A DNA stretch of 62,164 bases from Bacteroidota bacterium (lineage in GTDB: Bacteria; Bacteroidota; Ignavibacteria; OLB7), in NCBI GenBank assembly GCA_018266795.1, contig JAFDZV010000001.1, positions 1-62,164 of the forward strand, given 5' to 3'. The notes beneath the pieces were generated by a model. The model did not search any database. It was given only the letters and a program-made list of their open reading frames with translations, and was not told the origin of the DNA. Positions 1 to 57,105 of this stretch are shown one piece after another (position 1 is the stretch's first letter; each line of letters starts with the position of its first letter). The translations under genes and the position numbers were made by a program.

Positions 1-317
1 CAAACTCAAAGGAGAATCCATGCGGAAACAGACTGCGGAGTTGCACGATGCCGACCACCTGCGTACATAGCAACACCAGCGTCGCTTCGCTCCGACGTAG
101 TGGTCACCTTCGAGCGGAATAGGTGGTCGGCTTCGGCGGAATACACACTCCCCGGCCGCGACGTGCGGCCGGGGATACGAATGCATGAAGCTACCATTTC
201 CTTCCGTTGTCTTCCTTCGCGCCCCCTGCGGTCAGCTCTCCCGCATTCATACCACATGCGCCCTCCACCTGCCTCGGTCTCCCCACTACCTCTCCCCGAA
301 AAAAAAATCCCAGGCTC
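1..317. other. Left-end region without a convincing gene
   Basis: No open reading frame here looks like a known protein. A 16-codon frame at 20-70 follows a good ribosome-binding sequence (AGGAG, 5 bases before ATG), but it is too short to support alone. A strong hairpin lies at 150-174. The rest has no feature I can name. The long minus-strand frame covering 6-560 is antisense to the ArsR gene and is treated as a shadow. Confidence 0.4.
150..174 (+). terminator. GC hairpin, terminator-like
   Basis: A perfect 10-bp stem (CCCCGGCCGC / GCGGCCGGGG) encloses a 5-base loop. No clear U-tract follows, so it may be a factor-dependent terminator or simply a stable hairpin. It sits before the arsR promoter and would insulate that operon from transcription arriving from the left. 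Confidence 0.45.
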
Positions 318-349
318 TTGACATGCAGGTGTCTGCCTGCCTATATTTG
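318..349 (+). promoter_or_regulatory. arsR promoter (Bacteroidota type)
   Basis: TTG (within TTGACA, 318-323) is followed after 21 bp by TATATTTG (342-349), a full match to the Bacteroidota -7 consensus TAnnTTTG. Read as a classical sigma-70 promoter it is TTGACA-18 bp-TATATT. Transcription should start near 355, inside the second operator dyad. One dyad fills the spacer, which fits repression by the downstream ArsR protein. Confidence 0.7.
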
Positions 350-370
350 AACACGCAGGTAAACGCCTGC
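325..370 (+). promoter_or_regulatory. Twin operator dyads for ArsR repressor
   Basis: Two copies of GCAGGTnnnnGCCTGC lie at 325-340 and 355-370, exactly 30 bp apart (about three helical turns). Each is an imperfect palindrome. The first lies between the -33 and -7 promoter elements and the second covers the predicted start of transcription. That is the usual place for sites of an autoregulating ArsR-family repressor. Binding is inferred; only symmetry, repetition and location are seen. Confidence 0.65.
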
Positions 371-387
371 ATATGACGGAGAAGCAG

Positions 388-717
388 ATGACACAGATCG
401 ACAAGGTGTTCAAGGCATTGGCGGACCCCAGCCGGCGTGCGCTGATCGACCGCCTGCATGCCAGGAACGGACAGACATTGAGCGAGTTGTGCAAGGGGCT
501 GGAGATGGCCAGGCAATCGGTCACGCAGCACCTGGGGCTTCTCGAGGATGCCAATCTCATTACGGTGCAGTGGAAGGGGCGGGAGAAGCTCCATTACTTC
601 AATCCCGTTCCCATCCACGAGATCTACCGGCGTTGGATACAGAAGTTCGAGCAGCCCCGCCTGGACGCGCTGCATGACCTGAAAACAAAACTTGAACGGG
701 AGAAGAAACAGCCATGA
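388..717 (+). CDS. ArsR-family winged-helix transcriptional repressor
   Basis: This is a 109-residue ArsR/SmtB-type winged-helix protein. The segment with ALADPSRR near residue 10 and the recognition helix around ARQSVTQHLGLLEDANL are typical of the subgroup found beside AHSA1/SRPBCC genes. The metal-binding cysteine motif of classical ArsR is absent, so the ligand is probably an organic molecule or none. I chose ATG 388 because GGAG ends 6 bases upstream; ATG 373 is in frame but only two bases past an operator dyad. It overlaps the next gene by ATGA (714-717), so the two are co-translated. Autoregulation through the dyads at 325-370 is likely. Confidence 0.88.
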   Translation: MTQIDKVFKALADPSRRALIDRLHARNGQTLSELCKGLEMARQSVTQHLGLLEDANLITVQWKGREKLHYFNPVPIHEIYRRWIQKFEQPRLDALHDLKTKLEREKKQP

Positions 718-1157
718 GCAGTGAAACGTTTGTCTACGTCACCTACATCGCCACCACTCCGGACCGGGTCTGGCAGGCGCTGATCGATGGGGAGCTGACC
801 CGCCAGTACTGGGGGAACGAGAACGTGTCGGACTGGAAGCCCGGTTCCAAGTGGGAGCATGTCTCCGGCGATGAGAAGCGTACGGTACGTGTGGTCGGCG
901 AGGTGCTGGAGTCCGTTCCGGACAGACGGCTGGTCATGACCTGGGCGGAGCCCGCCAATGCTGCGGACAGGAGCGCCTACTCGCGCGTCGCCATGGACAT
1001 CGAGCCCGTAGGCGACATGGTTCGCCTCACCGTCACGCACGACCAGCTGGACCCCGCATCGGACATGCCGCGCAAGATCGGCAATGGCTGGCCGCGCGTT
1101 CTCTCCAGCCTGAAGTCCTTCCTGGAAACCGGCCGGCCACTGAAGACCTGGGCGTAG
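714..1157 (+). CDS. SRPBCC/AHSA1-family protein
   Basis: A 147-residue protein of the SRPBCC (START/Bet v1-like) fold, AHSA1 branch. The pattern TPDRVWQAL near the N-terminus, a WxPGSxW turn (WKPGSKW) and the C-terminal helix with GNGWPRVLSSLKSFLETG are characteristic. Such proteins form a hydrophobic pocket, and many are encoded directly after an ArsR regulator, as here, with a 4-bp overlap. The substrate is unknown. It is presumably cytoplasmic, having no signal peptide. The operon arrangement suggests that the ArsR protein controls it. Confidence 0.85.
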   Translation: MSSETFVYVTYIATTPDRVWQALIDGELTRQYWGNENVSDWKPGSKWEHVSGDEKRTVRVVGEVLESVPDRRLVMTWAEPANAADRSAYSRVAMDIEPVGDMVRLTVTHDQLDPASDMPRKIGNGWPRVLSSLKSFLETGRPLKTWA

Positions 1158-1198
1158 ATGAATCGCGAATCCAAACATCAATCAACGGGAGAACCATA

Positions 1199-2011
1199 AT
1201 GCAGAACGCAGGAACAATCCTCAGGGAATTCTACGATGCGGTTATCGCGGGGGACATGGCGCAGGCGCGCACGTATCTGGCGGACGACATGACGTTCATC
1301 GGTCTCTTCGAGACCTATCCAAACGCCGACGCATACATGGCTACCTTTACCCAGCTCATGCAGATCGTGCGTCGCCTGGATATCAAGGTGATCGTCGGTG
1401 AAGGGGAGAATGCCGCAATCTTCATGGAGATGGATACCACCGCGCCTGTCGAGGCGGTCACGCTCGTGGCCGAGTGGCATCGCGTGGAGAACGGGAAGAT
1501 TGTGTATGCGCGGTCTGCCTTCGACGGACGTCCGTTCGCTGCGATGTTTGCCGCCGCAGGCGATGGAGCGCCGCGGGGAGGAACGCACGACATCCTCCAC
1601 CGTGTTGGCGTGAACGCGAGCCCGGAGGCGGTGTACAACGAGCTTGCGAGCATCGAAGGGATTCGTGCCTGGTGGGTCGCTACTGCCGACGGCGATCCGA
1701 CGAAGGGAGGGACCATCGATTTCGGGTTCTGCAAGATGCTGGTGCTCGATGCCGAGCCCGGCAAATTGATTCGGTGGCGCTGCACGAGCGGTCCGAACGA
1801 TTGGATGGATACGGAGGTCTCATTCCGACTGGAGTGGAGGGACGATCAGACCTTCGTCATCTTCAAGCATGCCAACTGGAAGGAGCCGGTGGAGTTCATG
1901 CACCATTGCAGCACCAAGTGGGGGACCTTCCTTCTCAGCCTCCGCGATGCGCTGGAGTCTGGCACGGGGCACCCGACTCCGCACGACCTCAAGATCCATG
2001 TCCGCGACTAG
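1199..2011 (+). CDS. SnoaL-like / SRPBCC two-domain fusion protein
   Basis: The 270-residue protein has two parts. Residues 1 to about 115 resemble a SnoaL/NTF2-like cone domain (FYDAVIAGDMAQARTYLADD, then a MEMDTTAPVEA strand and VENGKIVYARSAFDGRPF). Residues about 135 to 265 form an SRPBCC domain (VNASPEAVYNELASIEGIRAW and a closing helix with KWGTFLLSLRDALESG). Each fold binds small hydrophobic ligands in other proteins; the role of the fusion is unknown. It starts 41 bp after the previous gene with GGGAG upstream and is probably the third gene of the arsR operon. The N-terminal assignment is by pattern only and less certain than the C-terminal one. Confidence 0.75.
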   Translation: MQNAGTILREFYDAVIAGDMAQARTYLADDMTFIGLFETYPNADAYMATFTQLMQIVRRLDIKVIVGEGENAAIFMEMDTTAPVEAVTLVAEWHRVENGKIVYARSAFDGRPFAAMFAAAGDGAPRGGTHDILHRVGVNASPEAVYNELASIEGIRAWWVATADGDPTKGGTIDFGFCKMLVLDAEPGKLIRWRCTSGPNDWMDTEVSFRLEWRDDQTFVIFKHANWKEPVEFMHHCSTKWGTFLLSLRDALESGTGHPTPHDLKIHVRD

Positions 2012-2044
2012 CCTGGAAACGGCTTACCATCCGAAGCCCGGAAC

Positions 2045-2085
2045 GGTTGCCAGGCTCACTCCGCTCGCTTGCAATGGCTATGGAA
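2045..2085. repeat. Degenerate copy of short dispersed repeat
   Basis: The stretch with GGTTGCCAGGCTCACTCCGC followed by TCGCTTGCAATGGC resembles the conserved core inside each unit of the tandem array that follows. It probably is a decayed copy of the same 'CGCGATGAC...GCGATCC' type of dispersed non-coding repeat. Confidence 0.4.
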
Positions 2086-2098
2086 TGAAGATACGCTC

Positions 2099-2750
2099 CG
2101 TCTTCGCGAGCCCCGACACCGCCGGCGGCGGAGGAGGGGCGTGGCGACCTTTCCCGCTCAACGTACCGAGCCATATCAGCCACGTGAGGCCAGCCCGCAA
2201 AGGATCGCCACGGCTTCGCTGCGCTCGTCTCGCGATGACAACAGGTGGGTCATTGCGGAGGGATACTTTGACGCAGTCGAAGTTGATGTTCTGCTCATGA
2301 CAACAGGCATTGAGCATCACGTATATCGATCGTCTTCGCGAGCCCCGACACCGCCAACGGCGGAGGAGGGGCGTGGCGACCTTTCCCGCTCGACGTACCG
2401 AACCATATCAGCCACATGAGGCCAGCCCGCAAAGGATCGCCACGGCTTCGCTGCGCTCGTCTCGCGATGACCACAGGTGGGTCATTGCAGAGGGATACTT
2501 TGACGCAGTCGAAGTTGATGTTCTGCTCATGACAACAGGCATTGAGCATCACGTATATCGATCGTCTTCGCGAGCCCCGACACCGCCGGCGGCGGAGGAG
2601 GGGCGTGGCGACCTTTCCCGCTCGACGTACCGAACCATATCAGCCACGTGAGGCCAGCCCGCAAAGGATCGCCACGGCTTCGCTGCGCTCGTCTCGCGAT
2701 GACCACAGGTGGGTCATTGCAGAGGGATACCCTGACGCAGCCGAGGTTGT
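2099..2750. repeat. 232-bp tandem repeat, about 2.8 copies
   Basis: Three head-to-tail units start at 2101, 2333 and 2565 (TCTTCGCGAGCCCCGACACC); the period is 232 bp. The third unit diverges after about 2730. Units differ by few substitutions, so the duplication is recent or kept uniform. Each contains a core (2202-2239, 2434-2471, 2666-2703) beginning GGATCGCCACGGCTTCGC and ending TCTCGCGATGAC, a word family seen as dispersed repeats in many bacterial genomes. The period is not a multiple of three, and the frames crossing it encode arginine-rich nonsense such as VIARRAQRSRGDP, so the array is treated as non-coding. Confidence 0.9.
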
Positions 2751-2864: not shown

Positions 2865-3260
2865 ATGGAAATCAGGAGAAACGGGTCCCGCCCGTCGGGC
2901 AAGGGGCCGGAGGAATATTTCACCGGGACTGTTCGCATCGATCCGTTGTTCGAGACGGAGGAGCCGGCGCGAGCCGTGGGCGCATGCGTCACATTCGAGC
3001 CGGGGGCCCGCACCGCATGGCATACGCATCCGTTGGGGCAGACGCTGATCGTGACATTCGGACTTGGATGGGTGCAGCGCGAAGGGGAACAGGTGCTGGA
3101 GATCCGTCCCGGCGACGTGGTCTGGATCCCGCCTGGAGAACGGCACTGGCACGGCGCCACGGCGACCACGGCAATGACGCACATCGCGGTTCAGGAGCGG
3201 CTGGACGGCCGAACCGTGGACTGGATGGAGAAGGTCAGCGACGAGCAATACAGAGGCTGA
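2865..3260 (+). CDS. Cupin-domain protein
   Basis: A 131-residue single-domain cupin. The first metal-binding motif is seen as [18 protein letters not shown], with the two histidines (HTH) and the downstream glutamine, and the second as [18 protein letters not shown] with its histidine. The family resembles YkuX/mandelonitrile-lyase-like and quercetinase-like small cupins, which bind a divalent metal in the barrel; the reaction is not predictable. ATG 2865 was chosen because GGAGAGAGG precedes it by a few bases; the upstream in-frame ATG at 2781 lies before the candidate promoter. It appears to be transcribed alone. Confidence 0.85.
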
Positions 3261-56794: not shown

Positions 56795-57068
56795 ACAGTT
56801 GTCGGTTGTTCGTGATCAGCCGTCAGTCGAACGCCGTCGGCAACGGAGATTCCCCTCGCAGACGGATCGGAGTACAGTATGATGTCGGCATGTACGAGTA
56901 CATGGACCAGCAGCATGTCCGTCCGAGACTCGACGTTCACAACGCCTGGTGCCGACCCTGCCGACGGCTGACCCAAATGACTACCGACAACTGACAACTG
57001 ACTACCGACAACTGACAACTGACTACTGACAACTGACTACTGACTACTGACCAATGACAACGAACTAC
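56778..57068. repeat. Low-complexity inverted 'word' array ACAACTGACTACTGAC
   Basis: The left arm (56780-56810, with AGTCGGTAGTCGGTAGACAG followed by TTGTCGGT) is complementary to a right arm (about 56981-57065) made of repeated ACTACCGACAACTGAC, CAACTGACTACTGAC and CTACTGACCAATGAC words. About 170 bases separate them and hold no gene. Such arrays occur in intergenic regions of several bacterial phyla and probably spread by replication slippage; they may also form a long hairpin that ends transcription. Confidence 0.75.
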
Positions 57069-57105
57069 TGATCCTGCCGGCCAGCTAACGACCTTCAAGA
57101 ACCCC

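Follow-up and report, generated by a model that had tools for sequence, protein, structure and literature searches.

What is the 232-bp tandem repeat that lies between two genes near the start of this contig, and how did its unit multiply? We analyzed the array within the window (the whole stretch of DNA studied here, 62,164 nucleotides) and compared it with the rest of its source genome and with other genomes. The array is non-coding DNA between genes, and it is an ordinary, well-resolved case of a bacterial repeat type that is already known.

Structure and setting of the array

TRF identified a tandem repeat at 2099-2749 with a period of 232, 2.8 copies, and 96% matches, and a repeat search placed the unit starts at 2099, 2331, and 2563. 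The third unit runs on to ~2762 (profile match to 2761) when a small deletion is allowed, and TRF, the profile match, and alignment together delimit the whole array at 2099-2762 on the + strand, in the order A-B-C-D / A-B-C-D / A-B-C. Unit 1 (2099-2330) was delimited by TRF, the repeat search, and the genome match; unit 2 (2331-2562) seems to combine units 1 and 3 through a crossover; and unit 3 (2563-2762) has a shortened C module and no D, with all three on the + strand. Compared without gaps, units 1 and 2 differ at 7 of 232 positions, units 2 and 3 at 7 of 187, and units 1 and 3 at 8 of 187. With 7-8 differing sites per pair and the TRF values above, the sequence-only reading of nearly three near-identical 232-bp units is borne out.

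Each complete unit consists of an A hairpin that carries a CGTC tag, a 52-bp spacer, an inverted B module, a short linker, a C inverted-repeat module, and a 27-bp linker, D. The A module (+ strand, 2099-2149 in unit 1, repeated at 2331-2381 and 2563-2613) is a hairpin with a TCGC/GCGA outer stem. The conserved A-to-B spacer (+ strand, 2150-2201, 2382-2433, and 2614-2665) is also present at many copies elsewhere in the genome. Module B, on the - strand (2202-2239, 2434-2471, and 2666-2703), is an inverted palindrome of the form GTCATCGCGAG...GTGGCGATCC. The C hairpin (+ strand) occupies 2248-2303, 2480-2535, and about 2712-2762, and D (+ strand, 2304-2330, with a second copy at 2536-2562) precedes A at many dispersed copies as well. 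The A tag reads CGTC throughout, and the B tag is TGTC in the first unit and GGTC in the other two.

The start of the window (1-2099) is an end of contig C11, and the array begins 2.1 kb further on. Both neighboring genes lie outside the array on the + strand: an upstream gene with SnoaL-like and AHSA1 domains (1199-2011), whose stop is 88 bp before the array start, and a downstream gene with a cupin domain (2865-3260). Three open frames at the array (2069-2416, 2310-2648, and 2542-2862) are 16.8-21.5% arginine, and none of the three has a Pfam match. We rejected a coding function for them and regard them as products of GC-rich hairpin repeats; the reading from the letters alone had already called them spurious. 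This is non-coding repeat DNA, and annotating its frames as arginine-rich proteins would be a mistake.

Distribution and folding of the repeat family

Copies of the same composite, whole or partial, are dispersed between genes genome-wide, and those in the array cluster tightly with one another. The genome-wide search with one unit that the sequence-only reading had proposed was run with unit 1, which matches its own genome (5.97 Mb, 71 contigs) at 54 or more places, mostly with 75-92% identity; this is a lower bound, since scoring covered 40 of the 96 first-look candidates. A profile made from the matched loci gave 64 non-redundant hits, 29 of them near full length (93 raw hits before overlaps were removed), in loci that were fetched because they matched, so that these hits are no genome census. 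The claimed kinship of the core with "common" intergenic repeats holds across the genome (at least 54 places), but within the window the exact pattern is confined to the array: the motif GTCATYGCGAGN{5,30}GCRATCC has three matches there, all inside the array on the minus strand, and none in 100 shuffles.

Dispersed copies keep the order D-A-spacer-B-C, with A on the + strand and B on the - strand, and D or a worn D stands ahead of A at about 12 of the 17 hits that start at the tag (by eye). Of 42 repeat clusters, 40 lie mostly outside the genes that a crude codon-based finder predicts, vs 12.6% of random 150-bp segments drawn from the window. Genes flanking these 40 mostly non-coding clusters are co-directional in 23 cases, convergent in 7, divergent in 7, and undetermined in 3. 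A second form of A plus spacer, with a TTGC/GCAA outer stem instead of TCGC/GCGA and a spacer from near TGTGCCGGCCGGCATCACGG, occurs at about eleven loci (L015, L022, L027, L029, L030, L053, L054, L055, L057, L058, and L061), where it is mostly joined to the same B and C modules. The genome also carries a second abundant repeat class, a 7-base tandem repeat of the CAACTGACTACTGA type, seen in the window at 56974-57071 and found at 49 places; similar strings flank repeat copies at L020 and L026.

Folding was compared with shuffled sequences. The A module of the window (z -2.5) and the C module at 2248-2303 (z -3.0) fold better than shuffles, the window B module alone does not (z 0.09), and the whole unit gains only slightly (z -1.2 to -1.5). 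A B type whose inner palindrome is perfect, such as the one at L055, does exceed its shuffles in folding (z -3.6). The B alignment took in 32 of the 39 extracted modules; an identical window copy and six modules of unusual length or type were excluded. In it, 80.5% of cells pair, and the observed pairing and covariation were each reached by 0 of 500 shuffles. All 29 of the 29 C modules were aligned, with 82.5% of cells pairing; here 30 of 500 shuffles attained the observed pairing and 46 of 500 the covariation, and covariation support for C modules is weak. The palindromes have an outer stem of 4-5 bp, an internal loop, and an inner hairpin of variable sequence. With both paired positions left free in the motif, the tested base pair is Watson-Crick in 139 of the 150 matches listed, from 7 of 16 genomes of the phylum (94 T-A, 41 C-G, and 4 G-C; 77.6 expected if independent), although related copies are included, so the matches are less independent than this figure suggests. 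We rejected a structured RNA family, since Rfam gave no match at E up to 1 across 1900-2900. A promoter and terminator scan found no promoter-like site, and no terminator-like site within the array.

Beyond the source genome, a search of 20 relatives gave no whole unit, and among 391 genomes of the class (own genome included, two candidates scored per genome) the whole unit occurs in its own genome only. Stretches of 39-41 bases of the unit match in two genomes of the class sample (G107 and G176). The motif itself is broader, occurring in 53 of 395 genomes of the phylum and up to 89 times in one of them, compared with two hits in all for a reversed control pattern. A genome from another family of the phylum (G521) has a tandem A-B array (L064, 1015-1247; period 128, 95% matches) that starts at CGTC, so the tandem form is not unique; the tail there is CCA, whereas in the window A ends in ...GGCGACC and then TTT. 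Eight single proteobacterial hits to a linker pattern share ~22 spacer letters, in a collection that possibly lacks the source genome, and were taken as unrelated. An origin from a mobile plasmid or phage was also rejected, as the unit matched nothing in 72,556 plasmid and 50,697 phage records. In the literature, as represented by titles and abstracts, the repeat letters turned up only in primer-like coincidences. Since the composite family is unmatched in the other genomes searched, it can be used to mark a strain or species, and the array can serve as a variable-number locus.

Origin of the array and competing explanations

Each of the three units resembles the other two much more than it does any dispersed copy. 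Within the array, identity by alignment is 0.934-0.966, while window copies share at most 0.847 (mean 0.73) with other loci. At unit positions 62, 72, 142, and 159, unit 2 has the letters of unit 3 and not those of unit 1, and at 169, 170, 179, and 183 it has the letters of unit 1 and not those of unit 3, with three private changes (26, 27, and 86). Such perfect four-and-four sorting has a chance of about 2 in 70, on eight sites in all, and from these letters unit 2 seems to be a hybrid of its two neighbors. A crossover joining the first and last units of a two-unit locus would leave this order in its product. Because of this hybrid order and the tightness of the array group (copies 3-7% different), unequal exchange, which had been suggested from the uniformity of the copies, is supported, and the unit was very probably multiplied locally by unequal recombination. 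A two-unit A-B-C-D-A-B-C form also exists at another locus of the genome (L004); its copies are just 78% alike, which indicates that local homogenization is not general.

Altogether, we consider it highly likely that the array is a BIME-like, CGTC-type composite, non-coding, that was spread by some mobilization and grew into an array by unequal recombination or slippage. The composite would first have been spread by some mobilization, now decayed or of a kind for which we found no cognate transposase. A two-unit A-B-C-D-A-B-C locus would then have stood at the array site, and the third unit may have arisen by unequal recombination or replication slippage between the two direct copies. We think that the array most likely does nothing essential, possibly forming RNA hairpins behind the upstream gene. 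If the transcript of that gene reads through, it would carry strong hairpins past the stop codon, and these would be at most a modest 3'-end or termination element; otherwise, the array would be neutral or selfish DNA.

Six PF01797 (Y1_Tnp) hits are present in the source genome, two of them IS200-type. An NCBIfam scan covered five of the six (the sixth has stops): two open frames, on contigs C7 and C9, pass the cut-off for REP-associated tyrosine transposases, and a fragment on C51 falls below it. None of the six hits has the unit within 1.5 kb, in agreement with the report that CGTC repeats have no dedicated transposase (Di Nocera et al. 2013), and the copy nearest the C7 gene is about 2.7 kb away. 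The C9 transposase gene (L033, C9:73636-74359) lies between inverted GTAG-type copies of GTAGGCGCACGTCTTCAGCGTGCG, a sequence found once more at C69:39407, and looks like a GTAG REPtron. The gene on C7 (L062, 6749-7281) lies between near-identical 27-base direct repeats (C7:30521 and C7:31448), which have no further copy in the genome at up to 3 mismatches.

These genes bear on the possibility that an enzyme recognizing the CGTC tag generated the array in a single step, e.g., by RAYT-like rolling-circle copying, and not by homologous exchange. Nunvar et al. (2010, PMC2817692) put forward a model of this kind for BIMEs. Both the window array and the L064 array start exactly at CGTC and have n units and n-1 linkers, and the source genome itself encodes two genes above the REP-associated tyrosine transposase cut-off. 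Still, we judge one-step copying unlikely: the unit is absent within 1.5 kb of either gene, both genes are flanked by repeats of other kinds (inverted and GTAG-type at C9, direct at C7), Di Nocera et al. (PMC3733652) linked no transposase to CGTC repeats, and the hybrid middle unit fits exchange. A more specific version, which we regard as a long shot, is that a hypothetical tag-specific enzyme makes CGTC composite arrays with exact tag ends in several families of this phylum and uses the conserved unpaired stem-hairpin letters as its recognition site. If true, such an enzyme would be the missing mobilizer of CGTC repeats.

It is also quite improbable that the array was selected as a regulator, with its multiple hairpins controlling the mRNA between the cupin gene and the SnoaL/AHSA1 gene ahead of it. 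The two genes are co-directional, the array follows the upstream stop by 88 bp, and the folding of modules A and C exceeds that of shuffles; yet dispersed copies adjoin many different genes in all orientations (23/7/7, plus 3 undetermined), and the cupin gene of a congener lacks an upstream copy. That congener, G001, has an orthologous cupin gene (81.5% identity), and the 1.5 kb ahead of it hold no copy of the unit. The SnoaL/AHSA1 gene matched nothing in four other genomes of the family, G001 among them, so the G001 cupin locus is no true empty site. An assembly artefact in which one or two true units were falsely expanded is very unlikely: this is a 71-contig draft genome with a contig end 2.1 kb from the array, but the three copies differ at 7-8 sites, unlike a falsely repeated single unit, and copy 3 ends differently.

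Comparison with known repeats

The array is a BIME-like series of palindromic repeats, and its palindromes are nearest to CGTC-tagged REPs. CGTC repeats comprise four families with stems of 8-9 bp and loops of 4-5 bases (Di Nocera, De Gregorio and Rocco 2013, PMC3733652). The same study gives TGTC or CCTC as tag variants and a CCA-like tail, and reports the repeats from Chlorobi and Bacteroidetes among other phyla, with grouped elements being rare. Like these repeats (PMC3733652), the modules described here have a short palindrome with compensatory changes; they form inverted heterodimers with conserved spacers of 20-100 bp, and they are intergenic with no linked transposase. The end tag (CGTC in A, TGTC or GGTC in B) and the tail (CC before TTT in the window, CCA in L064) may be further points of likeness. 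Unlike them, our palindromes are longer and bipartite, the outer stem of 4-5 bp being set apart by the internal loop from a separate variable inner hairpin, and there are an extra C module and tandem arrays. Because the stem and loop lengths of the CGTC families (8-9 and 4-5) do not fit, we do not file these palindromes in CGTC-1 to CGTC-4.

As in BIMEs, the palindromes alternate in orientation, are separated by a fixed spacer (52 bp), and are extragenic; BIMEs usually exceed 100 copies per genome, and the unit here has at least 54 matches. Binding of DNA gyrase or IHF is another trait of BIMEs. E. coli BIME-2, as described in PMC2817692, is likewise a unit repeated in tandem, its two palindromes facing opposite ways at fixed spacing, but it is made of GTAG REPs associated with a RAYT gene and has no demonstrated sequence relation to our unit. 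The unit differs from REPIN/REPtron systems (GTAG REPs with RAYT) in that it flanks no RAYT gene (none within 1.5 kb). CGTC-type repeats have no known mobilizer, and the array and its L064 parallel are loci for testing movement against mere recombination. L064 repeats A(+)-spacer-B(-)-linker, with the same two palindrome types and the same CGTC start as the window array, from which it differs in its period of 128, its different spacers, and its lack of a C module.
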